Source: a virus
Virus record (IMG/VR): IMGVR_UViG_3300028364_000095
Coordinates: 1-32,588 of that record
Length of the DNA: 32,588 nt
Direction: 5' to 3' (one strand)
Every line of letters starts with the position of its first letter. Position 1 is the stretch's first letter. Below, one piece after another: positions 12,795-27,286 of this stretch. The notes below the pieces were generated by a model. That model made no database searches. It had not been told where the DNA came from and worked only from the letters and a program-made list of their open reading frames with translations. Both the position numbers and the translations under genes were made by a program.

Positions 12795-13121
12795 AGACAG
12801 ATAAATAAACCCCACAGCCATATAAAAGAACAGCAAAAAAAGATAAAATTGCCCACAGACAGATAAATAACCAGCAAAAAGGATAAATAAACAGCAAAAA
12901 GGATAAAATTGCCCCACCAGACATATAAAATTGACCAAAGACAGATAAATAAACAGCAAAAAGGATAAAATTGCCCCACCAGACATATAAAATTGACCAA
13001 AGACAGATAAATAAACAGCAAAAAGGATAAAATTGCCCCACCAGACATATAAAATTGACCAAAGACAGATAAATAAACAGCAAAAAGGATAAAATTGCCC
13101 CACCAGACATATAAAATTGCT
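12795..13121. repeat. 62-bp tandem repeat array with degenerate upstream copies
   Basis: Perfect 62-bp units begin at 12891, 12953, 13015 and 13077 (the last cut off after 45 bases at 13121). Each unit starts ACAGCAAAAAGGATAAAATT, continues with GCCCCACCAGACATATAAAA and ends AGACAGATAAATAA. Shorter imperfect copies (CAGATAAATAACCAGCAAAA etc.) fill 12795-12890. The identity of the units points to recent expansion by slippage or unequal recombination. The units contain A-tracts and no spacers, so it is not a CRISPR array. Confidence 0.9.
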
Positions 13122-13423: not shown

Positions 13424-13567
13424 TTATAAAGGATTCCAGTTCCTCGATACCCTTTGAACCAATCTGTCCTGTTGGGAACTCGTTATCAACTTTGTGTTCG
13501 CCACTTTGGATTCTTCCAGCATATATTGCAATCCGGATATTATTTCCATTCTTCTTTCTTCTGTCAT
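13424..13567 (-). CDS. 47-aa small protein, last gene of the leftward small-gene operon; possible frameshift
   Basis: The frame starts with ATGA overlapping the stop of the preceding gene and encodes MTEERRMEIISGLQYMLEES then KVANTKLITSSQQDR and a short end. The first ~21 residues look like a charged helix. A second frame, open without its own start, reads on to 13407 as GEHKVDNEFPTGQIGSKGIE then ELESFISSRLK, which also looks protein-like. A one-base shift would fuse them into a ~55-aa protein. The opening MTEERRME is duplicated in the 17-codon frame at 13860-13913. Function unknown. Confidence 0.45.
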   Translation of the reverse strand: MTEERRMEIISGLQYMLEESKVANTKLITSSQQDRLVQRVSRNWNPL

Positions 13568-13863
13568 GACATATTCGATATTCTTCTGAACCGACGATGT
13601 ACGTCCATTACATGAGTAGCACCGAACTTCGAATAGAACGCCGATAATGCATTAAGGAAATCCCTTTCATGGGGCATGTAATATCCCCTGTTGATCACTA
13701 CCTTTATATATTCAATGATTTCCACCGCGTGTGTCCATACATCAGGGAAGTGAGTATATTGGTACATATTCGAGTTGAATCTGTTCGAGTTGATATAACT
13801 GTCGAGCATGCAGATATTGAATTCGAGATAATCAGTCATTTGAAGATTCATTGCTAACCTCAT
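13564..13863 (-). CDS. 99-aa hypothetical protein
   Basis: A soluble, helical protein (MTDYLEFNICMLDSYINSNR, then VWTHAVEIIEYIKVVINRGY and HERDFLNALSAFYSKFGATH). I do not recognise it. It starts with MRLA, like the 74-aa gene upstream, and its ATG overlaps a preceding stop (AAATGAGG), so translation is probably coupled along the operon. The stop overlaps the next ATG by four bases. It is transcribed from the leftward promoter near 14470-14500. Small host-takeover or accessory proteins are typical in such operons. Confidence 0.6.
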   Translation of the reverse strand: MRLAMNLQMTDYLEFNICMLDSYINSNRFNSNMYQYTHFPDVWTHAVEIIEYIKVVINRGYYMPHERDFLNALSAFYSKFGATHVMDVHRRFRRISNMS

Positions 13864-13913
13864 TTCCTTCTTAATCTAATTAGTTCCTTTTCCATTCTTC
13901 TTTCTTCTGTCAT
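13860..13913 (-). pseudogene. 17-codon chimeric micro-frame (recombination scar)
   Basis: MTEERRMEKELIRLRRK. The first half is identical to the start of the 47-aa gene (13567 leftward) and the second half to the end of the 52-aa gene (14301 leftward). It is flanked by the same AAATGAGGTTAGCAA junction as the 52-aa/74-aa boundary. It therefore looks like a leftover from insertion or duplication of a gene cassette. It may still aid translational coupling to the 99-aa gene. Confidence 0.5.
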
Positions 13914-13921
13914 AAGTAATG

Positions 13922-14146
13922 CTATACTTTCTTACCATTAACAGATAAAATTATGCTATCTTCTAAATCAGAATGTATTAATCCACCTTGTGCAATAGCA
14001 TAAGTTCCTGTTTGTCTTAAAACATCGGAGTAGCCTATTTTTACCGTCCAACCAAAGTAGTAACCGCTTATTTCAAGGACATCACCTTCTTTTAACTCAC
14101 TACTTACAACACCAGTGCATTGCTTTTCATTTTTTGCTAACCTCAT
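13922..14146 (-). CDS. 74-aa hypothetical protein
   Basis: A beta-rich small protein: SSELKEGDVLEISGYYFGWT, then VKIGYSDVLRQTG and IHSDLEDSIILSVNGKKV. The pattern 'ELKEGDVLEI' suggests a small barrel-type fold, but no family is recognised. The ATG overlaps the stop of the 52-aa gene (AAATGAGG). It shares MRLA at the start with the 99-aa gene, and the bases before the two starts are identical for about 40 bp, a sign of cassette duplication. Confidence 0.55.
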   Translation of the reverse strand: MRLAKNEKQCTGVVSSELKEGDVLEISGYYFGWTVKIGYSDVLRQTGTYAIAQGGLIHSDLEDSIILSVNGKKV

Positions 14147-14301
14147 TTCCTTCTTAATCTAATTAGTTCCTTTTCCATTATGATCAACGACCATAACTTA
14201 TCAGCAAGTACTTCACGTGATGCTTTTTCCAAGTGTACGTTGTCCATTCGTCTTGTTACCCTTTTAATCTTTGCTCTTGTGTTCCTTAGTTCTTTTTCCA
14301 T
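14143..14301 (-). CDS. 52-aa basic helical small protein
   Basis: MEKELRNTRAKIKRVTRRMD, then NVHLEKASREVLADKLWS and LIIMEKELIRLRRK. It is strongly basic and helical, compatible with binding nucleic acid or a host protein. The internal repetition of MEKEL at both ends suggests that an in-frame piece was duplicated. Start overlaps the stop of the membrane protein gene (TAATG) and the stop overlaps the next start (ATGA). Function unknown. Confidence 0.5.
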   Translation of the reverse strand: MEKELRNTRAKIKRVTRRMDNVHLEKASREVLADKLWSLIIMEKELIRLRRK

Positions 14302-14420
14302 TATGTGAACAGTTTAAAGTAGAACGCCATTGATGACCATACGAACAATGTGAATACTATATACACGAATATTCCACCGAATAATTTACCTAAATATGTT
14401 GCTAATCTGTCTTTTTTCAT
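14301..14420 (-). CDS. 39-aa single-span membrane protein
   Basis: MKKDRLATYLGKLFGGIFVY then IVFTLFVWSSMAFYFKLFT: a short basic N-terminus and one long hydrophobic helix (about residues 12-36). First gene of the leftward small-gene operon, after an A-rich leader (AACAAACAAACAAAAAAAC) downstream of the repeated promoter. Such early small membrane proteins often modify the host envelope or exclude other phages; here that is only a possibility. Confidence 0.55.
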   Translation of the reverse strand: MKKDRLATYLGKLFGGIFVYIVFTLFVWSSMAFYFKLFT

Positions 14421-14447
14421 TTTGTTTTTTTGTTTGTTTGTTACGAC

Positions 14448-14509
14448 TATAAATATAAAATAGAAATTTCAAACATTGATTTTCACGGCATTATTTTCAA
14501 TTATTTTTT
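14448..14509 (-). promoter_or_regulatory. Leftward Bacteroidota-type promoter, copy 1 (small-gene operon)
   Basis: Read leftward, TTG (14500-14498) is followed after exactly 20 bases by AATGTTTG (14477-14470), one base off the TAnnTTTG -7 consensus of Bacteroidota promoters (TTG - about 20 - TAnnTTTG). The whole ~61-bp segment, including downstream AAATTTCTATTTTATATTTA, is repeated at 19374-19434 with only one length difference in a T run. Conservation outside the two boxes suggests further bound factors or a recent duplication. Confidence 0.65.
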
Positions 14510-14574: not shown

Positions 14575-15060
14575 TCAGCCATCATGTGAATAAGAAAAGA
14601 ACTCATTTAATTTAAGTTCCTGATTAGTACTGTATGGTGGACTTCCATCGAACCTGTAATGATATCGTAAGGAATCAGCACATACTATGTTATTGTCCAA
14701 TATTGCCAATATTTCCTTTGTTGGGTTCGGCCCTGCTAATCTTTCTTTACAAAGTTTTACGTTATCTTCCATTAATTCTACACCGTATGTAGTTGAAAGG
14801 GCTTGTTCCAATGTACAACCACTTAATTCCATTTTTCTAATTACCACTTCTGAAAGGAACTGCCCGTCACCAGAAGATGGGTCTAGGAACTTCTTGGATA
14901 TATCCTTGAATAGTTCATGACCTAGTTCGTCCAGCATTTGTTGTACAAGTTCCGTTGGCGTGAAAACTTCGGATGTTTGTTTAACACGAAGCTTGTCACG
15001 CTCAATACCGCTCATGTATTCACGGTTTCTAGTATGTTCTATGTATTTAGATAATTTCAT
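14575..15060 (-). CDS. SAM-binding half of a split adenine-specific DNA methyltransferase
   Basis: A 161-aa protein holding only the N-terminal motifs of a gamma-type N6-adenine methyltransferase: motif X EVFTPTELVQQML (31-43), motif I FLDPSSGDGQFL (58-69), motif II GVELMEDN (93-100) and motif III NIVCADSL (114-121). It ends soon after, where intact enzymes reach NPPY. An SPPY at 130-133 could be a decayed motif IV, but lacks the usual hydrophobic strand before it. It would bind S-adenosylmethionine and need a partner for base binding and recognition. The five genes transcribed ahead of it supply that missing half. Its start lies inside the end of the preceding gene (14-base overlap), so it is translated last and coupled. 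Part of its 5' end is duplicated at 15856-15942. Split arrangement is seen; the complex is inferred. Confidence 0.8.
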   Translation of the reverse strand: MKLSKYIEHTRNREYMSGIERDKLRVKQTSEVFTPTELVQQMLDELGHELFKDISKKFLDPSSGDGQFLSEVVIRKMELSGCTLEQALSTTYGVELMEDNVKLCKERLAGPNPTKEILAILDNNIVCADSLRYHYRFDGSPPYSTNQELKLNEFFSYSHDG

Positions 15061-15856
15061 CTGGTATAATTATTTTAGAAAAAAGTGATTTGGAATTCGT
15101 ACATGATACACGTAGTTCATTGAGTTCAGTTAGTATATCGAATTCCAGCATCCATTTTTTTAATTTTATGGCGGATTCTAATGAATCGGTGGCTAAACCA
15201 ACAATACTACGGGTTATTGAATATTCCGGACCTGCTATTTTTATAGCTCGGCCCCCACCCTTATATGGAACTAAGACTTTCCATTTACCGATTAATGTCG
15301 ATTCGGATTCATCATATTGCCAATTAAATTCATCGGTTTTATAACTTCCTAATGATTCTATGGTTTTATATTTTCCAGTATTATTTAATCCACCCATCAA
15401 CCTAGTACCATTGTACCATATATCACCCAAAGTTTTAGTGTTTGGATCCATTAAAAAGGATTTCTCAATATTCTTGGATATAACAAGATTTTTTTGTTTA
15501 AGTAATCTGATACTCTGTGGTTCTGTATTTGATTTATATTCAAATGAGTCAGACTTCTTTGTTGAATCGCCTACCACGTGACACGTACGTATTTGATTAC
15601 TTATATCAAATATTGGTTTATCATGATAGACCATTTTTATGAAGTTATCATTTAAAATTATATTATTTTTAAATGCATTTGTTTCAAAGTTCGCCCTTAA
15701 TATATAAGTAAACTTACCATTCTTGGTTAAGTTTGATATTAATTTAATGAAATCATCACCTATATTCTTACTTCTTCCTCTATTTTTATAGCTTGTATCA
15801 TCATTTATAGTAAACGGTATGTTTCCCACTACGATAAAATCGTCATTATTTTCCAT
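15047..15856 (-). CDS. Catalytic/target-recognition half of split methyltransferase, module 5 (GNIPF type)
   Basis: A 269-aa protein that starts MENNDDFIVVGNIPFTIN, so motif IV (NIPF in place of NPPY) is at about residues 12-15. Motif VI-like FTYILRANF and motif VIII-like FDISNQIRTCHVV follow, then a target-recognition-like half with GKWKVLVPYKGGGRAIKIAG. It lacks motifs X, I, II and III entirely. It is clearly paralogous to the 15929-16738 protein, strongest in KWKVLVP(Y/R)KGGGRA(I/V)KIAG. NIPF/NIPY/NLPY forms are known from rRNA adenine dimethylases, so activity is still plausible. Its start shares TAATG with the stop of a 28-codon remnant of the SAM-half gene. Its end IIPDEII overlaps the start of the SAM-half gene. 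Confidence 0.75.
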   Translation of the reverse strand: MENNDDFIVVGNIPFTINDDTSYKNRGRSKNIGDDFIKLISNLTKNGKFTYILRANFETNAFKNNIILNDNFIKMVYHDKPIFDISNQIRTCHVVGDSTKKSDSFEYKSNTEPQSIRLLKQKNLVISKNIEKSFLMDPNTKTLGDIWYNGTRLMGGLNNTGKYKTIESLGSYKTDEFNWQYDESESTLIGKWKVLVPYKGGGRAIKIAGPEYSITRSIVGLATDSLESAIKLKKWMLEFDILTELNELRVSCTNSKSLFSKIIIPDEII

Positions 15857-15942
15857 TAGATATTTTTTACATTTTTTATTATTATAATACCACTCATGTA
15901 TTCACGGTTTCTACTATGTTCTATATATTTAGATAATTCCAT
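15856..15942 (-). pseudogene. 28-codon remnant of the SAM-half methyltransferase gene
   Basis: Starting at 15942, MELSKYIEHSRNREYMSGI repeats the first 19 residues of the 161-aa SAM-half (MKLSKYIEHTRNREYMSGI), with the DNA also nearly identical, then diverges into IIIKNVKNI and a stop. It begins inside the end of the 15929-16738 gene, exactly as the intact SAM-half begins inside the end of the 15047-15856 gene. This shows that the SAM-half once followed module 4 directly and that module 5 was later inserted or duplicated with this junction. The stop overlaps the next ATG (TAATG), so it could still pass ribosomes on. Confidence 0.85.
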
Positions 15943-16738
15943 CGGGTAGTGGTATATATGAAAATAATGTTTTAGTATTAGTCCCTGATGTTCTGATTTT
16001 GTTTAAGTAATCACATATATTTTCAGTTACAAACCAATCATGGAATTTTATTGCACTCGATTCCTTATCGAATTCAAATGCAATTATACTAAAGCATATA
16101 GAAAATTCAGGCCCAGCAATTTTAACTGCCCTACCCCCCCCTTTTCGTGGGACAAGTACTTTCCATTTACCAATTGAAGTATTTTCTTTACTATCGTAAG
16201 ACCATTGAAATTCACTCGTTTTATAACTGCCCAATGATGTAATTACTTTGTATTTACCATTATTTGATATTTGATTCAAATATCTAAATCCGTTATTCCA
16301 TATATCAGCTAGTGTTGGTTTATCAACATCAAGGGTAATGGTAGATTCAATATCCTTCGATAATACAAATTTTGCATTACGATTTAATAAAACTAATTCT
16401 TTTGAGTTATTTACGTTATACTCAAATGTGTCAGTTATGTTGTTAGAATCCAACACAACATGACATGTGCGTATAAATGATGATATATCGAATATAGGCT
16501 TGGTGTGATGTACTATCTTTTTCAAATATGGGTTCAATATCAATTCTCGCTTGAAAACGGTACGAGTATATTGTGCAGGTAAAATATAACAAGCCTGTCC
16601 TTTTTTTGATAATTTATTAATTAACGTAATGAACGAATCACCAATTCGAGTTGATCCACCACTACCAATGTCTAAATTATTTCCTTCGTTTTTATTTATA
16701 GTAAACGGTATGTTTCCTACTACTACATCAAATTTCAT
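15929..16738 (-). CDS. Catalytic/target-recognition half of split methyltransferase, module 4 (GNIPF type)
   Basis: A 269-aa protein beginning MKFDVVVGNIPFTINKNEGN: motif IV at residues 9-12 directly after the start codon and one beta strand. ACYILPAQYTRTVFK (motif VI region) and FDISSFIRTCHVVLD (motif VIII region) follow, then a recognition domain with WKVLVPRKGGGRAVKIAG. It has no SAM-binding motifs of its own. Closest relative is module 5; the two differ most around residues 20-35 and in the central third. It ends IPLPDGII, with the stop overlapping the remnant of the SAM-half gene. A 12-base gap separates it from module 3 upstream. Confidence 0.78.
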   Translation of the reverse strand: MKFDVVVGNIPFTINKNEGNNLDIGSGGSTRIGDSFITLINKLSKKGQACYILPAQYTRTVFKRELILNPYLKKIVHHTKPIFDISSFIRTCHVVLDSNNITDTFEYNVNNSKELVLLNRNAKFVLSKDIESTITLDVDKPTLADIWNNGFRYLNQISNNGKYKVITSLGSYKTSEFQWSYDSKENTSIGKWKVLVPRKGGGRAVKIAGPEFSICFSIIAFEFDKESSAIKFHDWFVTENICDYLNKIRTSGTNTKTLFSYIPLPDGII

Positions 16739-16750
16739 ATTTTTATTTAT

Positions 16751-17566
16751 TTAACATATGAATTCTTTCCAAAAGTCTTTTTTGAAACCCAACATCACTT
16801 TATATTCAAATGAAAAACCCGCCCATTTACAATTAGATACAAATTGTCTAAATTTATCAGTATTAACTGCCTTGATGATATTATCACCTTCCAATTCAGT
16901 AGTTACTTCTATAGCAAAACAATTATTAGTGACACCATATTTACCCTCTCTATCAAATATTGCATTTTCAGGTGAGGCCTTACCGAAAATTATTTTTTTA
17001 ATCCCAAAGTGGCCGTTGTTTTTCGATGAATATAATAACTTTGGTATACCATTAGCAGGTGTACTATGGATACATGGTAACATATGAGTATCATCTGAAA
17101 CCATAGACATCCAATTTTTATCATTACCATACATACTACGAGAATGTAATATTTTTATAGTATTAGCAGATTTAGTAGTAATATTTTTCAGAAAATCCAT
17201 ATGAGTATTAAATACGTACTCAGCTGATTTTAAGTCGATAAATTCAGTATGACCTAGTTCATCTACTACTTCGGTTTTTATATCACTAATTGAATTTCGA
17301 ACGGTATACCAGTCGTATCTAGTACTAACACCGAATATAGATTTCCCATCAATTGCATTATGAATTTCCAGATACACCATATCAAATCCCTTTAATAGTT
17401 CTAATATATTGTGATTGGGTTTTCTCCATGCACTGGGATGTACTAATGACATATATCCATTTGGTTTTAATATACCCAATGTTATTTTTACAAATTGTTG
17501 CCAAAGTGGATTATTTTTATTATCACTTTGATATGGCGGGTTTCCCACTACTACATCAAATTTCAT
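16751..17566 (-). CDS. Catalytic/target-recognition half of split methyltransferase, module 3 (GNPPY)
   Basis: A 271-aa protein that begins MKFDVVVGNPPYQSDNKNN. Motif IV NPPY is at 9-12, which in gamma adenine methyltransferases binds the flipped adenine. GYMSLVHPSAWRKP is motif VI and IFGVSTRYDWYTVRN motif VIII. The C-terminal part (KWAGFSFEYKVMLGFKKDFW) resembles recognition-domain ends of Eco57I-type enzymes. Length is about half of a complete enzyme and motifs X and I-III are missing. The first 26 bases of the gene are identical to those of module 1. Likely works with the 161-aa SAM-half to methylate a specific DNA site. Confidence 0.8.
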   Translation of the reverse strand: MKFDVVVGNPPYQSDNKNNPLWQQFVKITLGILKPNGYMSLVHPSAWRKPNHNILELLKGFDMVYLEIHNAIDGKSIFGVSTRYDWYTVRNSISDIKTEVVDELGHTEFIDLKSAEYVFNTHMDFLKNITTKSANTIKILHSRSMYGNDKNWMSMVSDDTHMLPCIHSTPANGIPKLLYSSKNNGHFGIKKIIFGKASPENAIFDREGKYGVTNNCFAIEVTTELEGDNIIKAVNTDKFRQFVSNCKWAGFSFEYKVMLGFKKDFWKEFIC

Positions 17567-17574
17567 ATTTTTAA

Positions 17575-18462
17575 TTATTTAACATTATCTTCAATATACT
17601 GTATTTCTTCTTCTGTTAGATTGAAATAATTATAAAGCTTCATTTCGGAATCACATAACATTAATTCTTTTGAAAATTTAGGTAACCTAGAAAAGGGGCC
17701 GGTATTAAAACCTCCTGTTTTGTTTGAAGTAACGACAAATCTATATAATTTAGATTTCAATATAAATTCGATCATACTCGCTTCTTCTTTACTATTTGTA
17801 TAGATTCCTACTACATTACGGCCGGGAATAGAACTCAATGTTTTATATATATAATCTTTCTTTGGTGAAAAGTATGTACCTGACATATTTACAATCACCT
17901 TCCATCCATTATAATTAGATACAGACTCTGGCTTATAGTAGAGTAATTGGCTACCTGTATGTACAACTTCGGTAGTGTATATATTATCTCTCATTAAACT
18001 ACATTTTCCCACTTCAATATCTTTACTCTTATATGATAAGAAATTTTTAGTTTCTATTTTTTCACTAAAACCATATACTTTTTTACTTATAGTTGACTGT
18101 AAATCAGTATTAGTATAAGTTCGTATATTTATTGTTGTATGATCCAACTCATCTTGTATAGTAGTGCTTCCCTTATAATTATTTTTTGATAATAAAAACC
18201 AACCTATATTCTCACCCACCGAACTAAAATACTTATTTACATTTTTATTTATATAAATCAAATTTTGATTCAGTAACAATTCATTTGCACGTGCTAGATC
18301 GGGGCCCATTCCTCGCAACCATGATATTGGTGTCACCAATCCCAAATAACCATTTTCACTAAGTAATGATATTGATTTTTCTATAAAAGAGGGCCATAAT
18401 TTATTGGATTTATTGTTATTGGATTGGTATGGTGGATTACCCAATACTACATCAAATTTCAT
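17575..18462 (-). CDS. Catalytic/target-recognition half of split methyltransferase, module 2 (GNPPY)
   Basis: A 295-aa protein starting MKFDVVLGNPPYQSNNNKSN (motif IV at 9-12), with GYLGLVTPISWLRG (motif VI) and FSSVGENIGWFLLSK (motif VIII). The C-terminus has the usual recognition-domain end of Eco57I-like methylases: FILKSKLYRFVV, then FSRLPKF and LYNYFNLTEEEIQYIEDNV. SAM-binding motifs are absent. It is 8 bases from module 3 and 14 from module 1. The central region differs from the other modules, as expected if each recognises a different sequence. Confidence 0.8.
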   Translation of the reverse strand: MKFDVVLGNPPYQSNNNKSNKLWPSFIEKSISLLSENGYLGLVTPISWLRGMGPDLARANELLLNQNLIYINKNVNKYFSSVGENIGWFLLSKNNYKGSTTIQDELDHTTINIRTYTNTDLQSTISKKVYGFSEKIETKNFLSYKSKDIEVGKCSLMRDNIYTTEVVHTGSQLLYYKPESVSNYNGWKVIVNMSGTYFSPKKDYIYKTLSSIPGRNVVGIYTNSKEEASMIEFILKSKLYRFVVTSNKTGGFNTGPFSRLPKFSKELMLCDSEMKLYNYFNLTEEEIQYIEDNVK

Positions 18463-18476
18463 AGTTTTTATTATTA

Positions 18477-19349
18477 TTATATCCTTTTAAAATCATGTTC
18501 ATACAAATCCCCTATGTATTGATTTATAAAATTCTGTTCCGTTTCATTAATATCAAAGTGCTTGAATAACTTTTTATCATCCCAATTTTCGGAAAAATCC
18601 ATATATGGTACTGATTTTAATTCACCTCGATGTACTGTTTGGTTTATTTTATATATCGAGAGACAGAATCTTGCAAATTTAGTTTTGACAAAGTTGAATA
18701 GATTGTATGATTCGTTTACAGTATTTACACCGATGTAATTATACCCATTCTCGAAATCTGAAAAAATGATATTATCGATACAATGTTGATCTTGACAATA
18801 TATCAATTGAAAGAAGTCAGGATTTACTTTACTAAGAATCGGTATATGACCGGAAATACTTACTAACTTTACATAAATTTTAGATTTCTTGTCGTTCTTC
18901 TTTCGGTAGTTCATATCCTCGAACGATATATTCATTCTACTAAAAATTTTATCCCTAATACTTAGTACAATATCATTACCGTGCATGAATACGTCGTCAA
19001 GTGTAGTATATTGTTTTACTTCATTGTCATTAACGTGTGAATATATTACATCTATAGTTTTATCTTTTATTTTGGTTACTGTCGTTATACTAAGTGGTAT
19101 AAAAAAACCAGCATTAAAAAGTTTATTTCCATCTACAAATTTCAACATTGATCTATATTCCGAAATAATATTCTTTATTCTTTTGGTCTTAACATTATCT
19201 TTAGTTGGTTTTCTATTAATGAATGGTGTACTTGGGTGAATATGAATCATAATACCACCATCAGTAAGATACTCGAACGCGTTGTTAATAATATCGATGT
19301 GCAATCCTTGTTTATACGGTGGGTTTCCCACTACTACATCAAATTTCAT
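18477..19349 (-). CDS. Catalytic/target-recognition half of split methyltransferase, module 1 (GNPPY), first gene of the operon
   Basis: A 290-aa protein starting MKFDVVVGNPPYKQGLHIDI (motif IV at 9-12). GIMIHIHPSTPFIN corresponds to motif VI and AGFFIPLSITTVTK to motif VIII. The recognition part ends with VKTKFARFCLSIYKINQTVH, a GELKSVPYMDFS segment and LFKHFDINETEQNFINQYI, the pattern that closes many Eco57I-type proteins. Motifs X and I-III are missing. It is the most upstream gene of the leftward methyltransferase operon and follows the promoter copy at 19374-19434. Confidence 0.8.
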   Translation of the reverse strand: MKFDVVVGNPPYKQGLHIDIINNAFEYLTDGGIMIHIHPSTPFINRKPTKDNVKTKRIKNIISEYRSMLKFVDGNKLFNAGFFIPLSITTVTKIKDKTIDVIYSHVNDNEVKQYTTLDDVFMHGNDIVLSIRDKIFSRMNISFEDMNYRKKNDKKSKIYVKLVSISGHIPILSKVNPDFFQLIYCQDQHCIDNIIFSDFENGYNYIGVNTVNESYNLFNFVKTKFARFCLSIYKINQTVHRGELKSVPYMDFSENWDDKKLFKHFDINETEQNFINQYIGDLYEHDFKRI

Positions 19350-19373
19350 ATTTTTTAATTCGAGTGTTACAAG

Positions 19374-19434
19374 TATAAATATAAAATAGAAATTTCAAAC
19401 ATTGATTTTCACGGCATTATTTTCAATTATTTTT
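19374..19434 (-). promoter_or_regulatory. Leftward Bacteroidota-type promoter, copy 2 (methyltransferase operon)
   Basis: Read leftward, TTG (19426-19424), 20 bases, then AATGTTTG (19403-19396). The segment is the twin of 14448-14509. It lies 47 bases upstream of the first methyltransferase start codon. Identity with copy 1 implies that the methyltransferase and small-gene operons are expressed together, probably early. Confidence 0.65.
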
Positions 19435-19486
19435 AAGGAATAGATGTACAGGGAACGTTTCTAATACATTATCTTTAGTTTATCCA

Positions 19487-19511
19487 TATCTTACTATTAC
19501 TTTTAATATAT
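19487..19511. repeat. Repeated intergenic element, copy C (partial)
   Basis: TATCTTACTATTACTTTTA followed by ATATAT; matches the second half of copies A and B (12387 and 14544 onward). The AAGGAGTCTTTAT part is not at the same distance here; only TTTTAAGGAA at 19431-19440 recalls it. Confidence 0.6.
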
Positions 19512-19834
19512 CATCCCTTAAAATCGTTCCTAGTACTATAGGATTCAATCCTGTACTTAATTATTATAGTAAGTCATGTTACTCATGTATCTATATTATT
19601 GTTTTTATTAAAATAAAAACTGGTATAAGTCCTATCTATACTAAATCAATAAGCTATAATAAAATAATATACCAGGTATTCTTTACGTTTACTGCAACTA
19701 TCTGATATGTATGTGTGTACTGCGGTACAATGTGAGTTAGAGACACATCAAAAAATATATTAATAATCCTGATTGGCTTAAGAGCTCTAACCTCTTTTGA
19801 CAATTGGGATTTTTTTATACAAAAATTTTAAATT

Positions 19835-20104
19835 ATGACTTACCTAAGTAAAGAAGATTTCCACTCAAAGTTGGAAGAAGATTATAATAATCTGGATATG
19901 GAAACTGATATGATACCAATAATAGATGAATGTTATGATATGGCTGAAAAAAACAAAGGACATAATATACCTTATACCAATGTTGTAATTAAAATCATTG
20001 AAGGAATAAAGAATCGTGGATCTAGAAAATGTACGTTCAACCAATGGAAATGTATTTCAAAATATCAGAAAGTAAATAATAAGTTCAAAAAAATAAAATT
20101 ATGA
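19835..20104 (+). CDS. 89-aa hypothetical early protein
   Basis: A soluble helical protein (MTYLSKEDFHSKLEEDYNNL, then MIPIIDECYDMAEKNKGH and a Lys-rich end CTFNQWKCISKYQKVNNKF). No motif is recognised. It is the first gene of the rightward early operon, has an AAATT-rich leader and overlaps the next start by four bases (ATGA). The basic tail might contact DNA. Confidence 0.6.
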   Translation: MTYLSKEDFHSKLEEDYNNLDMETDMIPIIDECYDMAEKNKGHNIPYTNVVIKIIEGIKNRGSRKCTFNQWKCISKYQKVNNKFKKIKL

Positions 20105-20313
20105 GTAAAGAAGTAAATGCATTCGAGAAGTATCATGATGATAGACGTGAATTTTTAAATTATTTATTATGTTGGTTTGAGTTACATAGAACTGATATGT
20201 TAGAAGATGAATCCAACTTAGTTGGCGATTATATAGTATTATATCCATGGAACACGGATAATGATAAGAAAAAAGTTAATCGTGTTATCAATAAAGTAGA
20301 AAAGAGATCGTAA
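20101..20313 (+). CDS. 70-aa hypothetical early protein
   Basis: A small acidic N-terminal/basic C-terminal protein: MSKEVNAFEKYHDDRREFLN, then YLLCWFELHRTDML and a DNDKKKVNRVINKVEKRS end. Starts in the ATGA overlap with the previous stop and ends with the TAATG overlap of the polymerase-like gene, so the three are translationally coupled. No family recognised; it may be an accessory of the downstream protein. Confidence 0.6.
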   Translation: MSKEVNAFEKYHDDRREFLNYLLCWFELHRTDMLEDESNLVGDYIVLYPWNTDNDKKKVNRVINKVEKRS

Positions 20314-21569
20314 TGGATAAGTTCGCTATTACACATAAAGATGCTGCATTGATATATAATCATATTCAATCTAAGAAACGATCACCAAAAAATCAATTCC
20401 TTAAACGTATCAAGGTTATGGACTGGATCAATAAAAAAGTTAGTAAGACTGATAGTGGTATAATAGCTATCCATCAGCATAACTTAGCTAAGAAACTGGG
20501 TATAGGAGTTGCTCAAATTAATAGTATAATAAATGAATTAGCATTTAATCTACATATTATACAAAAAGAACACGTACATATCGCTGGTATAACTTCTTGT
20601 GGTTATTCTACTATAAACAAATGGGATACTGGTGAATATATTCACGTGCACTGTCCTGTCAATGCTTTAGATAATATTTCTACATTTCTGCAGAATGATA
20701 ATGATAATGAATTTGTTAATCAATATCTTTCTAATATGGATAAGATATACATTCCTTATTTTATAAAATCCTCTAATGATTTCTATACTGCAATATTACT
20801 TGATAATTCTACTGGATTGCCAGTTGCAAATTATATATCTTATATACCTTATGATTCCGATAAGGAATTAGACATAGTAAACGAACCAGTAGAACTGTAT
20901 AATATACCAGTAAAAGAACAAAGAAAATGGATAAACAATTTAGGTATAATAACCCAGCCAAATAAAGATAATCGAGTGTACCAGATATTGACACAGACAA
21001 GTTCAGTATATAGAAGAAACTTCAAATGGAAGCATGACAATGAATTACTTGACTTATTACAAACCGATATGAAGTCTGCACAAGTAGTCCTATCATATCA
21101 TAAATTCAGAATGGAAACAAAACAAGAAGAACCATTCATAAAAGAACATATAGACAATGGTACGGTATATAAAGTTATGATGGAAATATTGGAGAAGACT
21201 GATAGGGATGAATTCAAAAAGGAATTATTCAAAGACTTTCTATTCGCTGGACATTGGTGGATGAGTAGAAAAAAGAATATGATATCACAAATGATTAAAG
21301 ATATGTATCCAAACTATTGGAAATGGGTATATCAAACAAAGAAAAAAACAAGTAGTAGTGAGTTTTCACATATGATTACAAGATTGGAGTGGAAGTTCAT
21401 ACGTAACACGCTCAAGGAATTGTATGGGGAAGGTGTACCGTGTGTTTCACTACACGATAGTATAATATACCCTGAAAGTATAGACCCCCTTTATATCGAA
21501 GAAAAACTAAACGTGGTAGCCAGAAGAACATTCGGCTCAATCATACCTATAAAATCATCAAACCTATAA
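20313..21569 (+). CDS. Palm-domain (family A polymerase-like) protein with N-terminal winged-helix-like region; putative replication protein
   Basis: 418 aa. Residues ~48-80 (DSGIIAIHQHNLAKKLGIGV...) look like a helix-turn-helix. Three spaced motifs recall the palm of family A DNA/T7-type RNA polymerases: motif A LLQTDMKSAQVVLSYH (Asp 252), motif B RDEFKKELFKDFLFAG (Arg 298, Lys 302, Gly 313; R-x3-K followed by aromatic-x-G) and motif C VSLHDSI (His 381, Asp 382). An YRRNFKWKHDNEL stretch precedes motif A, like the 'RxxxxxTxLxxELR..L' lead-in of uncharacterised Bacteroidota phage/plasmid proteins. There is no exonuclease, helicase or full thumb domain; at 418 aa it is much shorter than Pol I-type enzymes. 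No other replication gene is seen in the window, which makes it the best candidate. The function is inference. Confidence 0.5.
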   Translation: MDKFAITHKDAALIYNHIQSKKRSPKNQFLKRIKVMDWINKKVSKTDSGIIAIHQHNLAKKLGIGVAQINSIINELAFNLHIIQKEHVHIAGITSCGYSTINKWDTGEYIHVHCPVNALDNISTFLQNDNDNEFVNQYLSNMDKIYIPYFIKSSNDFYTAILLDNSTGLPVANYISYIPYDSDKELDIVNEPVELYNIPVKEQRKWINNLGIITQPNKDNRVYQILTQTSSVYRRNFKWKHDNELLDLLQTDMKSAQVVLSYHKFRMETKQEEPFIKEHIDNGTVYKVMMEILEKTDRDEFKKELFKDFLFAGHWWMSRKKNMISQMIKDMYPNYWKWVYQTKKKTSSSEFSHMITRLEWKFIRNTLKELYGEGVPCVSLHDSIIYPESIDPLYIEEKLNVVARRTFGSIIPIKSSNL

Positions 21570-21581
21570 ATTATAAACAAA

Positions 21582-21758
21582 ATGGATATTAAAAAAGTAT
21601 TAAAAAAGCTAAAAGAATTTGATAATAATTCATCAATTGGAAAAAAGAAATCAGCAGCTGCTTTTAAAAAGATGAACCAGAAGATTTACAATAATAATTT
21701 AAGAACCGAGACTTTCAGAGATTTATTCAAAAAGGTACAAGGACAAGAAAATGATTAA
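21582..21758 (+). CDS. 58-aa basic small protein
   Basis: ATG at 21582, 12 bases after the polymerase-like gene, preceded by TTATAAACAAA. Sequence MDIKKVLKKLKEFDNNSSIG, then KKKSAAAFKKMNQKIYNN and RTETFRDLFKKVQGQEND: Lys-rich, helical. It is too short for many gene finders but has coding-like composition and operon position. It could bind nucleic acid or assist the preceding protein; unknown. Confidence 0.55.
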   Translation: MDIKKVLKKLKEFDNNSSIGKKKSAAAFKKMNQKIYNNNLRTETFRDLFKKVQGQEND

Positions 21759-21842
21759 AAAATAATTGCTTCAAAATCGGTCTTTCCGCTATCCAGCTCA
21801 TATTTAAGATCGTACATGAGTACAAATTAAAAGTGAACAGTT

Positions 21843-22730
21843 ATGATTAACAAAGAAACGTACGTATGCAAAAATTGTAATATTGAGAAGCCAATCGATG
21901 AATATCATAAAAACAAAGGTCGAAAAGAAGGTAGACTTACCCAGTGCAAGGTCTGTATACTTTCAAAAATGAAATCAAGATATGTACCTGTTCCAAAGAA
22001 ACCTAGAAAAGTAAAAACAGTAGTTGCGCATACAGATTCCAAAAAATGTAAAAAGTGTGGTGAAGTAAAAACTCTTGATAATTTCTATGTCAATACATAT
22101 ATCAAAAGTGGCCGGATAGCTAACTGTAAGGAGTGTTCACGATCATCTAAAGTAAAAGTTGCACGTTTAAATTCAGGCCTAAAATTTACCATAGAGGAAG
22201 AATATACGCCATTGGAACAGATAAAATATAAATGTGACAATAATATCGATTTCCAGCGTGATTTTATAGATAACCGCACATCAAGTCACTCTTACATTGC
22301 CTATCATAACTTTATAAAATCAAAAATGGCGACTGAATTCAATGAAAGAAACTTTGAACCTAATTCAATAGCTCATAAACTTATTGGAATAGGGTATTCA
22401 GAACTCATATCACAACTGGACGCTAACGACTGGGGATTTTCCGTAGGTATGTATCAAATTTCACTAGACCACGTTATATCACTCGAAACAGCTGTAATAG
22501 GTGGCAAGTTAGATGCTCCGAAGTACGAATCATTGTGGCACCATTCTAATTTAGTGTTGACACCCACTATTTTCAGGGATTTTGTAAGATTCGGTAAACC
22601 TATACAGGAAATAGAGCTTTTATTGTGGCTGGAAGGTACAGACTGGTGGAGCGGAATACGTCCCCCGTATATTCCAAAGTATATCCATGATTTAAAATTT
22701 GATATACAAACCTACGTAGATACAGATTAA
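21843..22730 (+). CDS. HNH-type endonuclease with two CxxC zinc-finger repeats
   Basis: 295 aa. Two N-terminal repeats have CxxC...CxxC pairs: C9/C12 with C35/C38, and C69/C72 with C95/C98, each in a 'C..C...K....F/Y' context typical of Cys-rich repeats in phage HNH proteins. The C-terminal part has an HNH-like core, YQISLDHVISL (Asp 209, His 210), then YESLWHHSNLVLTPTIFRDF (His 223-224, Asn 226). The enzyme would nick or cut DNA, as a free-standing homing endonuclease or a packaging/recombination nuclease. It is separated from neighbours by ~85 and ~125 bases, consistent with an acquired gene. HNH assignment is by motif. Confidence 0.7.
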   Translation: MINKETYVCKNCNIEKPIDEYHKNKGRKEGRLTQCKVCILSKMKSRYVPVPKKPRKVKTVVAHTDSKKCKKCGEVKTLDNFYVNTYIKSGRIANCKECSRSSKVKVARLNSGLKFTIEEEYTPLEQIKYKCDNNIDFQRDFIDNRTSSHSYIAYHNFIKSKMATEFNERNFEPNSIAHKLIGIGYSELISQLDANDWGFSVGMYQISLDHVISLETAVIGGKLDAPKYESLWHHSNLVLTPTIFRDFVRFGKPIQEIELLLWLEGTDWWSGIRPPYIPKYIHDLKFDIQTYVDTD

Positions 22731-22856
22731 AAACCACTTTTTTGATGAAATTTACGTTTTTTTATAAAAAATAGTTGAAATTTTAACGTTTTATTTTGTT
22801 TTTAAATATTTATAGTAGTAGAAACACTACGAATAACAACCAAAAACAAAATTAAA

Positions 22857-23405
22857 ATGACAAAAATTAAAGAAGTATGGAAAGATGTTCCACAGTACAA
22901 AGAAGCATATCAAGTATCCAGTCTTGGAAACGTAAGATCTTTGGATAGAATAGTATATACTAAAAAGGGTTCAAGAAAATTAATAGGGAAAAATCTAAGT
23001 ACATCAAAGTTGCCGAACGGATATATGCAAGTAGGAATATCCTATGATGGTGTAACAAAAAACTACTATACACATCAATTGGTAATGATGGCTTTCAAGG
23101 GATTCGAACCTAATGGTAAATTTTTAATTGTAGATCATATAGATTCGGACAAGACTAACAATAACATTGAGAACCTACAACTAATTACCCACCGCGAGAA
23201 CCTATCCAAGGACAAACGTAATTCAGGAAGATACAGTAGTGAATATGTAGGTGTAAGTTGGAACAAGAAAATAAAGAAGTGGGTATCGTATATCCAGCTG
23301 GATGGTAAGATAAACTACTTGGGTTCTTTCCTTGATGAGCTTGAAGCACATTTAACTTACCAGTTCGAATTATATCACTACAAATCAATGAACAATAAAT
23401 TTTAA
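22857..23405 (+). CDS. Free-standing homing endonuclease (NUMOD4-HNH with AP2-like end)
   Basis: 182 aa. NUMOD4-type N-terminus EVWKDVPQYKEAYQVSSLGN then VRSLDR (6-30). HNH core: HQLVMMAF (His 73), IVDHIDSDKTNNNIENLQLI and THREN (Asp 93-His 94, Asn 106, Asn 115). AP2-like strand set at the C-terminus: SEYVGVSWNKKIKKWVSYIQ followed by YLGSF. This order is standard for phage HNH homing endonucleases that cut intronless alleles and spread their own gene. It has its own AT-rich upstream region and A-rich leader (22731-22856), as such mobile genes usually do. No interrupted host gene or intron is apparent. Confidence 0.88.
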   Translation: MTKIKEVWKDVPQYKEAYQVSSLGNVRSLDRIVYTKKGSRKLIGKNLSTSKLPNGYMQVGISYDGVTKNYYTHQLVMMAFKGFEPNGKFLIVDHIDSDKTNNNIENLQLITHRENLSKDKRNSGRYSSEYVGVSWNKKIKKWVSYIQLDGKINYLGSFLDELEAHLTYQFELYHYKSMNNKF

Positions 23406-23415
23406 ATTAAAAGTT

Positions 23416-23574
23416 ATGGAAGCAGAATTGAACATATTAATATCAGCAATCGAAAAAGCACAACAACGTGGGGTATATACCCTGACGGAAGTGTCGACTA
23501 TTCTTAAATCGATAGGAACGTTAAATAAAATTATGTCGGATATGTCACTTACAAAAACAGAAGCAGAATGGTAA
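23416..23574 (+). CDS. 52-aa hypothetical protein
   Basis: MEAELNILISAIEKAQQRGV then YTLTEVSTILKSIGTLNKIM and SDMSLTKTEAEW. This pattern (a helix, then 'GVYTLxEVSxIxxAI') is common in small, widespread but uncharacterised proteins of Bacteroidota phages. The start follows TTAAATTAAAAGTT. The stop is directly followed by a stem-loop (23576-23623), closing the early/middle operon. Confidence 0.6.
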   Translation: MEAELNILISAIEKAQQRGVYTLTEVSTILKSIGTLNKIMSDMSLTKTEAEW

Positions 23575-23575
23575 C

Positions 23576-23623
23576 GGACGGGCGGTTTTTTATTTTTTGT
23601 CATTTAAAATTTTACGCCCGTCC
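23576..23623 (+). terminator. GC-rich stem with long loop after the 52-aa gene
   Basis: GGACGGGCG (23576-23584) pairs exactly with CGCCCGTCC (23615-23623). The 30-base loop is T-rich (GTTTTTTATTTTTTGTC). The T run sits in the loop rather than after the stem, which is unlike a standard intrinsic terminator; it may terminate by another route or protect the 3' end. Confidence 0.55.
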
Positions 23624-23642
23624 CAATACCAAAAATTAATAA

Positions 23643-24110
23643 ATGACCGAATATTTACCACTTATATATAAAATCAGTAATAAATTTCCTAAAAAGTATC
23701 GTAATGATCTGGTACAGGAAATGTTTATAAAAATGCATGATATAAAAAATGGTTATGATATTGAAAAAGGAACGTTCGTAACGTACCTCTACAAGAACTT
23801 ATATTATCATTCCTTACATTATGTACAGAATAACAAAATAATCCATCAGTCGTTGGATGAGTGGGTTACAGATGATTGTAATGATGAAAGAAGGAAGTCG
23901 GATTTACTTGAAAGCACTGTAAACGAGGAACTACGATTCGAACACCGCGATTATTTGGAACAGAACGATAAAAGATTTACAATAGAAGAACTGTTCATAC
24001 GTGAAAAATATTACGAGTTGGATTTATCGGTACGAATGATAATAGATCTATATTCACCATATCACGGATTTACATCACCTACTACAATATACAAAATATT
24101 AAATAAATGA
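23643..24110 (+). CDS. Sigma-70 region 2-like transcription factor
   Basis: 155 aa. Residues ~20-62 match sigma region 2: RNDLVQEMFIKMHDI, then YDIEKGTFVTYLYKNLYYHS, the equivalent of 'DLxQExFxxxxxxxxxxxFdxekGxFxTyLyxixxN'. The rest is acidic and ends in a helix-turn-helix-like stretch (LDLSVRMIIDLYSPYHGFTS PTTIYKILN, in two parts) that could be a degenerate region 4. It is encoded just upstream of the late operon and overlaps by four bases (ATGA) with a second HTH protein. Likely role: directing host RNA polymerase to late promoters. Region 2 similarity is good; target promoters are unknown. Confidence 0.65.
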   Translation: MTEYLPLIYKISNKFPKKYRNDLVQEMFIKMHDIKNGYDIEKGTFVTYLYKNLYYHSLHYVQNNKIIHQSLDEWVTDDCNDERRKSDLLESTVNEELRFEHRDYLEQNDKRFTIEELFIREKYYELDLSVRMIIDLYSPYHGFTSPTTIYKILNK

Positions 24111-24340
24111 CATTATACAAATACCTTACTTCATCCACGGTAAACCCAATATTAATAGAGTTGGTACGAAACCGCATCACGAGTTCCACGAACGTAATCA
24201 AGGAACTAAAAATATTCGAGGATTACCTAGAACTTACCGGAAGGGAAATGGATAAGTGGAAATCATTATCCATCAGACATAATTTATCGGAGTCTACGGT
24301 CAAAAGAATATTGAAGAAAATGAAATCACGTATAAAGTAG
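24107..24340 (+). CDS. Small HTH protein, sigma region 4-like partner
   Basis: 77 aa. The C-terminal half (EMDKWKSLSIRHNLSESTVK then RILKKMKSRIK) is a helix-turn-helix typical of sigma region 4 or small regulators. The N-terminal half is helical (VNPILIELVRNRITS). The ATG overlaps the stop of the region 2-like gene, so both are made in equal amounts, and together they would contain the two core DNA-contacting parts of a sigma factor. It could also be an independent regulator. Followed by a clear terminator. Confidence 0.6.
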   Translation: MTLYKYLTSSTVNPILIELVRNRITSSTNVIKELKIFEDYLELTGREMDKWKSLSIRHNLSESTVKRILKKMKSRIK

Positions 24341-24360
24341 ATTATAAATAACTTGGAAGT

Positions 24361-24392
24361 AAACCCTGTATCATTACGATATGGGGTTTTTT
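24361..24392 (+). terminator. Intrinsic terminator after the sigma-like pair
   Basis: AAACCCTGTATC pairs with GATATGGGGTTT (two G-T wobbles) around the loop ATTAC, followed by a T run. Separates the regulator genes from the late operon, which must therefore start from its own promoter. Confidence 0.85.
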
Positions 24393-24455
24393 TCATTGAA
24401 AAATATATACATATATATTAAAAGTTCAACCAAATGGACTGTTTTGGTAAATTAT

Positions 24456-24484
24456 CCTATAAAACTTACATATAAGCTTATAGG
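24456..24484 (+). promoter_or_regulatory. Candidate late-operon control element upstream of the head genes
   Basis: CCTATAA (24456-24462) and TTATAGG (24478-24484) form a perfect 7-bp inverted repeat with a 15-base spacer, 21 bases before the protease start. The region between the terminator and 24506 must hold the late promoter, but no convincing TTG/TAnnTTTG pair was found. It may use a different recognition sequence, for example that of the sigma-like pair. Confidence 0.4.
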
Positions 24485-24505
24485 GAGCAACCCAAAATAG
24501 AATAT

Positions 24506-25585
24506 ATGAACACAATCTATATAACAGGAGTAATTGGAAACGATGTCACATTAAAAAGTGTAATTTCTCAATATAACTCACTTTCAAATCCCCAAGAGGT
24601 TGAAGTAGTAATCGATTCCCCAGGTGGTGGTGTCGATGAAGGTCGTGCAATATACAGTTATCTTAAAAACTTACCCGTACCAGTAACTACGGTAGCCAAA
24701 ATGGCGTTTTCAATCGCATCCATTATTTTTATGGCTGGTTCAAAACGTGTAGTACTTTCAGGTAATGATCGTGTTATGATACACATGCCATGGGTACGGA
24801 ATGCTACAGGTGGTAGACTCCAACTTGAAAAACTTACCACGGAACTACAAATATTGGAAGATGAGTTCGTAGAACTATACGGTTCAATTATAAAAGCTGA
24901 TGAATCATCGATCAGAACTTTACTTACGAACGAGACATATATAAGTTCAGATGATGCGATTTCCCTTGGTTTCGCAACAGAAATTAGAGAACCGTTAAGA
25001 GCTGTAGCATTCCTATCCGATGCAGAAGAAAAACCAAAATCAAAATTAAATATAATGAAGAACGCAAATATTTTAGTACAAGCTTTAAAAGCTTTTATAA
25101 ACCAATCAACAGTAGCTCTTGTACTTCAAGATGCTAATGGAGTTGAAATTACATTTCCGGAAGTAGAAGAAGGAGAACCTGCGATAGGTGATTCCGCAAC
25201 AGTGGATGGTTTACCTGCAAATGGTGAATATATTTCCCCAACAGGAGAAACTTGGGTATTCGTGGACGGTTCTTTAACAGAGGTCAAATCAGTTGAACAA
25301 GAAGATGAAATCGATGATATCGACGATATCGAATCGACCGATACTGAAATGCAGGATCTTTTAGAAAAACTGTTTTCAGCAGCAAAACTTGAAACTACTA
25401 AAGAAGTAGAGGTATTGATCGAATCACTTAAAAATGATAACCAAATTCTTAAAGATGAATTGGTAGCTGTCAAGAAATTGATAGGATCGGACGATTTCAA
25501 AGTGGATGTAGATGAATCACAACCTATTGCAAAAACAAAAGGTGAAAGAGCAGTACAAATACTTAACTCACGAAGAACCAAATAA
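24506..25585 (+). CDS. Prohead protease (ClpP/S14-like) fused to a scaffold-like C-terminus
   Basis: 359 aa. The N-terminal ~170 residues are a ClpP-type serine protease: VVIDSPGGGVDEGRAIY, the nucleophile region KMAFSIASIIFMAG (Ser 72) and VMIHMPW (His 93). Then a small beta domain, GVEITFPEVEEGEPAIGD, followed by ANGEYISPTGETWVFVDG. The last ~100 residues are acidic and coiled (DEIDDIDDIESTDTEMQDLL, then SLKNDNQILKDELVAVKK), as in scaffolding proteins. By family knowledge it directs capsid assembly, then degrades the scaffold and frees itself. The combination in one polypeptide, directly upstream of the capsid gene, fits Bacteroidota phages without a separate scaffold gene. Confidence 0.85.
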   Translation: MNTIYITGVIGNDVTLKSVISQYNSLSNPQEVEVVIDSPGGGVDEGRAIYSYLKNLPVPVTTVAKMAFSIASIIFMAGSKRVVLSGNDRVMIHMPWVRNATGGRLQLEKLTTELQILEDEFVELYGSIIKADESSIRTLLTNETYISSDDAISLGFATEIREPLRAVAFLSDAEEKPKSKLNIMKNANILVQALKAFINQSTVALVLQDANGVEITFPEVEEGEPAIGDSATVDGLPANGEYISPTGETWVFVDGSLTEVKSVEQEDEIDDIDDIESTDTEMQDLLEKLFSAAKLETTKEVEVLIESLKNDNQILKDELVAVKKLIGSDDFKVDVDESQPIAKTKGERAVQILNSRRTK

Positions 25586-25617
25586 TAATTAATAACTAGA
25601 ACTAAAATAACAATAAC

Positions 25618-26544
25618 ATGGCATTAGACTTACAGGCACTAACCGCATATACGAACGAAAACAGAGATTCGATAATCGCAGGAGCAGTTGCAGGAGCAAA
25701 ATCAGCTCAAACATTAAACCTTCAAGTTGGATATAAATCCGCTGGAGCAATCAACATTATGGATACTTCGGTTACCTTCCAAGCAGATGTTTCTGGTAGA
25801 ACACCGAACGATACTACTACTTTCTCACAACGTATCCTTACAGTAGGAGCTATTAAGATAGAAGAAAATATCGATGTAAAAGCATTAAACGCTTACTGGA
25901 CACAACACGCTCTTAAAGCAGGTTCGGCCGATGATGTATTTCCATTTGAACAAGAATGGACAGATCGTAAAGTAGCCAAGATTTCTGAAACATTGGAAAA
26001 AGCTATCTGGCAAGGTGACACCGTCAATACAGGTTCTGCGAACCTTAGACATTTTGATGGTCTTTTAAAACATATCGATGCAGACTCAAATGTAATCGAT
26101 GGTAACACTGCTAGTGTAACTACCGCTATCACTAAAGCAAACGTAATAGGTATTATGGATGATGTGTACGAGGCAGTTCCTTTACCTGTATTGGAATCCG
26201 GAGAAGTAAAAATCTTTTGTGGATTCGATGTTTTCAGAACATACACACAGGCGTTGAAAGACTCTAACCTTTACCACTACTCAGCTAATAACTCAAACTT
26301 TGAGATAGAAGTACCGGGAACAGATGTAAAGATAGTAGCACTTCAAGGATTATCTGGAACTTCTAGAATAATCGCTGGTAAGACTGATAACTTCGTACTA
26401 GGTACAGACCTTGAAAATGAAGAAGAAGAGTTCGATGTATGGTACTCTAAAGAAGATAAAGTTGTTAAGTTCGATGCTCAATTCAAGTATGGTACTCAAA
26501 TAGCTTTTCCAGAACAAATAGTAGAATTTACTCTAGGAGCATAA
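25618..26544 (+). CDS. Major capsid protein
   Basis: 308 aa, directly after the protease. Begins LQALTAYTNENRDSIIAGAV; contains INIMDTSVTFQADVSGRTPN, EKAIWQGD and LKDSNLYHYSANNSNFEIEV, followed by a typical C-terminal domain with VPGTDVKIVALQGL and LENEEEEFDVWYSKEDKVVK. This fits an HK97-fold capsid protein of a Bacteroidota siphovirus: an N-terminal helix-rich arm, no membrane segment and a length in the usual range. The strong terminator hairpin after it suggests high or separately adjusted expression. No delta domain for cleavage is obvious. Confidence 0.82.
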   Translation: MALDLQALTAYTNENRDSIIAGAVAGAKSAQTLNLQVGYKSAGAINIMDTSVTFQADVSGRTPNDTTTFSQRILTVGAIKIEENIDVKALNAYWTQHALKAGSADDVFPFEQEWTDRKVAKISETLEKAIWQGDTVNTGSANLRHFDGLLKHIDADSNVIDGNTASVTTAITKANVIGIMDDVYEAVPLPVLESGEVKIFCGFDVFRTYTQALKDSNLYHYSANNSNFEIEVPGTDVKIVALQGLSGTSRIIAGKTDNFVLGTDLENEEEEFDVWYSKEDKVVKFDAQFKYGTQIAFPEQIVEFTLGA

Positions 26545-26562
26545 TCTACGACACAATTATAT

Positions 26563-26585
26563 AAGGGGGTTCTATACCCCCTTTT
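26563..26585 (+). terminator. Hairpin/terminator after the capsid gene
   Basis: AAGGGGG (26563-26569) pairs with CCCCCTT (26577-26583) around TTCTATA, followed by TT. Probably partial termination, lowering expression of the genes downstream relative to capsid. Confidence 0.75.
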
Positions 26586-26608
26586 AACCCATAAAAACTA
26601 ATATACAA

Positions 26609-27181: not shown

Positions 27182-27187
27182 CTATAA

Positions 27188-27260
27188 ATAGGTAATACTA
27201 CCTATATACATAAACACGAGAATTAAGGTAGCTAGGTTAATCCCAATGCTACCTATTCTT
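27188..27260 (+). terminator. Double hairpin after the 190-aa structural gene
   Basis: First hairpin ATAGGTA/TACCTAT (27188-27205, loop ATAC). Second hairpin AGGTAGC (27226-27232) / GCTACCT (27248-27254) followed by ATTCTTTATT. Both share AGGTA/TACCT arms, so alternative pairing is possible. Likely an attenuating terminator between abundant structural proteins and the portal genes. Confidence 0.6.
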
Positions 27261-27286
27261 TATTATAATAACCAAAATACCAAGAT

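Follow-up and report, generated by a model that had tools for sequence, protein, structure and literature searches.

We propose a model of a DNA methylase divided over two chains that is encoded in the window, i.e., the whole stretch of 32,588 bases of IMG/VR virus record IMGVR_UViG_3300028364_000095, a tailed-phage fragment with genes for endolysin, terminase, head maturation protease, head and portal proteins. In one tight minus-strand array the window encodes a small subunit (SS) and five modules, denoted W1 to W5, the six open reading frames (ORFs) being intact where the first-pass annotation had placed them. It is likely that this locus is a split gamma-type N6-adenine methylase in which the cofactor site of SS is common to the exchangeable modules, the purpose probably being anti-restriction.

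In the model, SS would provide the N-terminal half of the methylase fold, carrying the S-adenosylmethionine (SAM) site with motifs X and I-III, and each module would provide the other half, consisting of the strands from motif IV onward and a target-recognition domain (TRD). SS would dock in trans onto any of the modules and complete the fold, so that one cofactor subunit, which would supply the SAM, may serve several specificity subunits, with five distinct specificities expected here. The modules would have arisen from longer genes, those of a large subunit (LS), when the N-terminal cofactor-like domain was lost, the translation of a module starting at the Met of the MKFD-motif IV, and phages would gather them and trade them with one another like cassettes. 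The resulting methylation patterns probably shield the phage DNA from host restriction, a purpose that we take from the general knowledge of phage methylases.

The small subunit and its putative partner modules

The first-pass annotation had described one protein of 161 amino acids (aa) with motifs X and I-III only and five proteins of 269-295 aa without motif I, each beginning at motif IV, and both descriptions hold. SS has no conserved motif IV in its intact ORF; the SPPY near its end, tried as a motif IV (remnant), was rejected because relatives read FDGTHPV, FDGTPST or YSFGEP there. W1-W4 start with MKFDVV(V/L)GN(P/I)P(Y/F) and W5 starts with MENNDDFIVVGNIPF. The Pfam family Eco57I matches W1-W4 from residue 1 (profile position 73 onward), with W2, W3 and W4 passing the curated cut-off and W1 not passing it. 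No methylase match was found in W5 by the Pfam scan, its assignment as a methylase being via homology to W4 only (52% identical), and SS matches the N-terminal part of Pfam N6_Mtase below the cut-off. As to the features of the gamma class, motif IV (N-P/I-P-Y/F), the motif VIII region and the C-terminal recognition domain (W2-W4 by Eco57I) are present, while motifs X and I are not at the N-terminus of the module chains, which begin at motif IV; motif I sits in the separate downstream protein SS. Besides SS and a remnant of it described below, there is no second SS-like frame in the window record. No C5 methylase model is among the Pfam matches listed, and the modules carry an amino-methylase motif IV.

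The earlier suggestion that SS completes the modules is now supported by a family of fused proteins, by structure models, by the retention of the cofactor loop in SS as compared with LS, and by arrays elsewhere that have one SS and several partners. Firstly, the profile of PHROG 11371, an Aeromonas-phage single-chain family, matches W1 at 2-264 (E 3.8e-51) and SS at 274-382 (E 3.7e-19), and the complete chains of this family confirm the module-SS order. Secondly, a fused member of PHROG 11371 was modelled (predicted local distance difference test, pLDDT, 69; predicted template-modelling score, pTM, 0.67), the modelled chain being a naturally fused homolog and not an artificial module-SS join, which is no natural product of this DNA. 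Residues 1-380 of the model align with beta-class methylases with Z about 9-10 (M1.HpyAVI: 153 residues, root-mean-square deviation (rmsd) 3.4), and its halves match opposite parts of gamma-class enzymes, with the SS half matching CamA 10-152. From this complete predicted fold, the fused homolog is predicted to fold as one methylase with the beta-class order. Thirdly, W2, the model of which has pLDDT 84, covers CamA 157-577 (Z 14.1, 272 residues, rmsd 5.5), SS matches CamA 16-159 by sequence profile (E 1.5e-7), and the two together tile CamA, as 10-152 and 157-577. Finally, SS and LS differ in the cofactor loop, which SS retains and which LS has often lost. In bacterial LS of operons resembling restriction-modification (R-M) systems, the first Gly of motif I is replaced by Lys in 28 of 28 cases, and this Gly is present in all 27 bacterial SS that are readable. 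In phages, the loop of LS is degenerate or missing in 25 cases and plausible in 26, with 7 more having no N-terminal domain, while motif I of SS shows the plain pattern in 67 of 68, the remaining one having one extra residue.

It is noted that the first-pass annotation, which took the system as a split gamma methylase, was right about the split at motif IV and overlooked that the gene order is circularly permuted, as in the beta class. The order is module then SS, i.e., IV-VIII-TRD-X-I-III, which is not the usual gamma order, since gamma-class enzymes have the order X-I-II-III-IV-VIII-recognition domain in one chain. The beta-class enzymes (RsrI, M1.HpyAVI, CcrM) share with the window the motif order IV-TRD-X-I and have a fold like that of the fused homolog, but they are single chains and the window sequences are gamma-type, with the closest sequence matches being the gamma-class CamA and BseCI and the beta-class resemblance being by fold only.

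Relatives, exchange and alternative readings

The relatives of SS in IMG/VR number at least 565, and 97 phage records have a match to it. In most of the examined loci with enough upstream sequence, SS lies directly behind LS, mostly with a short overlap, and this pair of genes is widespread, both among phages and among R-M-like operons of chromosomes. LS is built of a variable N-terminal (cofactor-like) domain, MKFDVxxGNPPY and a recognition domain, and W1-W3 align with LS C-termini starting at the same residue, W1 (289 aa, 60% identity) with that of an LS of 1247 aa, and W2 and W3 over the full length. For W4, a full-length relative (25%) is encoded in cyanophage S-CAM7, where it directly precedes an SS. 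The single-module searches of IMG/VR used exact 8-residue patterns and, as the recognition domains diverge, gave few relatives; for W4 they gave none. Cyanophage P-SSM2 and several IMG/VR contigs have one-plus-one split forms starting at motif IV, and one split pair (L045) has the gamma order, SS then module. Met is at the module start position in 44 of 52 phage LS and likewise in most bacterial LS; the idea that an internal start codon of LS is kept by selection is weakened, because Met is common in bacterial LS too and may be structural. Separately, some phage LS (L015, L018, L022, L123, L129) are ~1150-1250 aa long, with an N-terminal extension of ~750-850 aa before the methylase part, and elsewhere this extension is a separate helicase-like gene of 740-770 aa just upstream of LS.

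Modules are present or absent from one related phage to another. In one (L042), the last 107 aa of an LS before the contig ends are the N-terminus of a module and have 90% identity to W2, the N-terminal domain of this LS having the degenerate cofactor loop FLFPIGKAGTF and its gene lying behind a 748-aa helicase-like gene. In L006 and L007, the 3' end of W2 (~125 nucleotides (nt) identical) is directly joined to an SS with 90% identity to that of the window, W3-W5 being missing there. The module next to SS differs between related phages. The simplest reading of these sequences is that the stand-alone modules are LS genes minus the N-terminal domain, moving between phages. An origin of the modules as tandem duplicates of one gene was rejected for W1-W3, which have ~31-36% mutual identity over partial length and different closest LS lineages, with the W4/W5 pair, 52% identical to each other, being the exception.

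The one-to-many architecture had been regarded in the first-pass annotation as without parallel, and this did not survive the search for such arrangements in other phages that the annotation itself had suggested: three other phage contigs have five, four and two LS per single SS. Within these LS arrays the N-terminal part including motif IV has 65-94% DNA identity (90% or more in two), and right after NPPY the DNA identity drops abruptly to 44-56%. In cyanophage ACG-2014f, two stand-alone modules lie ~100 kb from its only SS; clustered with them (L221:3235-7055) are a TSPPY-first amino-methylase, a putative HNH protein and a second DNA adenine methylase. Another arrangement is seen at L217:4845-6745 (also L218, L219), where a 292-aa gamma-order core with motifs X to VIII is accompanied by three recognition-domain ORFs of 112, 123 and 120 aa, which have 59-62% mutual identity and are related to the recognition domain of W1; that is, one core and three specificity subunits, split at another point than the window array. 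The complete five-module array is found only in this one record. An assembly artefact was rejected, because an independent contig (L041) is 100% identical over 18636 to 27349, taking in the first 238 aa of W1, and because split modules together with SS, and stand-alone modules that start at motif IV, are found again in unrelated contigs as well as in complete genomes of phages.

The main alternative is that the array is a recombination reservoir, where W5 alone works with SS and W1-W4 are donor cassettes that would reach the active position by exchange via the shared MKFDVVVGNPPY, as in phase-variable hsdS systems. The near-identical start sequences of the modules would ease such exchange, and the abrupt drop of DNA identity after NPPY in the other arrays, together with the difference among related phages in the modules adjoining SS, is consistent with it. 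Nevertheless, we consider it unlikely, because each of the modules has an ATG of its own, preceded by an A-rich leader, all ORFs are intact, and the stand-alone modules of ACG-2014f are far away from their SS. Note also that the reservoir and the split methylase are not mutually exclusive and both could be true.

Some observations weigh against the split methylase. Outside the two catalytic halves, the confidence of the fused model is no more than moderate (pLDDT 69), almost no relatives were found of the NIPF-type W4 and W5, and a plausible loop is kept in 26 of the 51 phage LS having the N-terminal domain, where SS may act otherwise. That about half of the phage LS keep a plausible cofactor loop of their own and yet have an SS would be expected if SS were a regulatory or DNA-binding partner rather than the SAM donor, with the modules using another cofactor protein or acting without methylation. 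It would then be difficult to understand why motif I is conserved in all SS, why fusion proteins exist, why Lys and Gly are divided between LS and SS, and why the window record has no other SS-like frame, making this possibility even less probable than the reservoir. Lastly, the truncated SS copy between W4 and W5, and W2 as a shortened version of a longer LS seen elsewhere, might be taken as signs that the array consists of decaying, mostly non-functional fragments of former LS and SS, which is very improbable, because the six ORFs are intact in DNA of 30% guanine plus cytosine, stand-alone modules recur in unrelated phages, and the ratio of nonsynonymous to synonymous substitution rates (dN/dS) is 0.16 for SS versus its nearest relative and about 0.27 for W4 versus W5, where synonymous sites are near-saturated. 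Because of these ratios, the array genes look maintained.

Layout of the locus

The array is a single leftward operon with tight gaps and one overlap, as was described before (Table 1), the gaps from W1 to W5 in turn being 14, 8, 12 and 72 nt. The last gap had been noticed as filled by a remnant; the remnant proves to be a truncated SS start, which overlaps the end of W4 and occupies most of the gap. Because of this 20-codon copy, it is probable that a unit of module and SS was duplicated once, with one SS lost thereafter. The two copies of an 84-nt repeat, with 92% identity, each lie upstream of one leftward operon, and judging from this placement the repeat is probably a duplicated promoter or leader, with one copy for the array and the other for the next leftward operon.

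Table 1. Positions in the window of the array genes, the SS remnant and the repeat copies
Feature	Position	Strand	Remarks
SS, cofactor (SAM-binding) half	14575..15060	-	161 aa; motifs X (EVFTP), I (DPSSGDGQF), II, III; no motif IV
W5, module 5, NIPF type	15047..15856	-	269 aa; 14-nt overlap with SS start
Remnant of second SS, first 20 codons	15883..15942	-	85% identity to SS
W4, module 4 (MKFDVVVGNIPF)	15929..16738	-	269 aa
W3, module 3 (MKFDVVVGNPPY)	16751..17566	-	271 aa
W2, module 2 (MKFDVVLGNPPY)	17575..18462	-	295 aa; modelled catalytic half and recognition domain, cf. CamA 157-577
W1, module 1 (MKFDVVVGNPPY)	18477..19349	-	290 aa; matches N-terminal part of PHROG 11371
Repeat upstream of W1	19351..19434	-	57-nt perfect core 19374-19430
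Second copy of W1-upstream repeat, just downstream of SS	14425..14508	-	shares the 57-nt perfect core

Elsewhere in the window, positions 13000-13119 hold two identical tandem copies of a 58-nt unit with 62-nt spacing and no clear gene. Downstream of the array, at 13543-14305, short repeats (TTAGTTCC/TTTTCCATT blocks, 20-51 nt) lie around small ORFs, which suggests a small-gene duplication. At 21843-22730, a 295-aa protein matches endonuclease VII families, and its N-terminal part matches a Lar-like family of PHROGs for restriction alleviation (zinc-ribbon type repeats).

Known systems and chromosomal relatives

To the gamma-class enzymes (CamA, M.BseCI, M.TaqI; Pfam Eco57I/N6_Mtase) both halves of the window system are homologous or alike in fold, but these enzymes are one chain, whereas the window has two chains, the reversed gene order and one cofactor half for several catalytic/recognition halves. 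PHROG 11371, with function listed as unknown, has a module and a cofactor half that are homologous to W1 and SS and in the same order, but in one chain and with one module. The multispecific C5 methylases of Bacillus phages, which act at cytosine-C5 and carry several recognition domains in one chain, are like the window in having several specificities from one shared catalytic resource. In Type I systems one shared subunit likewise serves several specificities, as in Helicobacter pylori with one HsdM serving two HsdS (PMC3936762), but there the shared chain is the whole methylase and the recognition chain has no catalytic motifs, whereas in the window the shared chain is the cofactor half only and motif IV travels with the recognition domain in the module chain. 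The split C5 methylases M.AquI and M.EcoHK31I are natural two-chain enzymes (PMC3404938), and differ from the window system in being cytosine-C5 enzymes, split at other motifs and one-to-one; a general remark on 'split DNA methyltransferases' has also been made (PMC4335053).

In many bacterial phyla, a chromosomal operon is present that consists of SS (~215-240 aa), LS (~500 aa) and a large helicase gene (~840 aa) (L132, L136, L138-L141, L144 and about 20 more genome contig loci). In the one operon scanned by Pfam (L144), the helicase has T5orf172 plus ResIII, and PADLOC labels the chromosomal LS and helicase as Type IIG. Like the window, this operon has an SS-type protein with no motif IV beside an Eco57I-type partner with a recognition domain, but the chromosomal LS has an N-terminal domain, with the Lys in motif I, that all window modules do not have; moreover, the operon contains the nuclease/helicase and usually one LS per SS, while no helicase-size ORF (T5orf172/ResIII) flanks the window array within this fragment. 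By its sequence, the operon looks like an R-M family that has the cofactor function in one chain and the catalytic function in another. In streptococci, enterococci, lactobacilli and relatives, motif IV is near the C-terminus of a 1190-1518 aa chain beside SS (L145, L151, L158, L161, and L143, L152), such chains probably being LS fused to a helicase part.

More generally, we lean slightly towards a general class of two-chain adenine methylases, occurring both in phages and in R-M systems of chromosomes, where SS would donate the SAM site to an LS whose own cofactor pocket is lost or carries the Lys, with the phage cassettes being the form where one SS would drive up to five specificities at once. 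In the open-licence literature, with subscription papers and REBASE lying outside this scope, we found neither a gamma-type adenine methylase described as split with the cofactor subunit in common, nor any description of LS having Lys where SS has Gly. The window array is not unique and is part of a wider family, which appears undescribed.

If the model is true, it shows how a virus can mark its DNA with several specificities at the cost of a single cofactor domain plus five halves that can be exchanged, and many phage ORFs called 'hypothetical' or lone methylase fragments (PHROGs 4376, 11371, 21201, 3689) would be explained. A natural methylase with a shared cofactor subunit and swappable specificity could also serve as a platform for methylation tools. 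Moreover, the finding points to an apparently undescribed bacterial R-M-like family, where cofactor binding and catalysis may sit in different chains.

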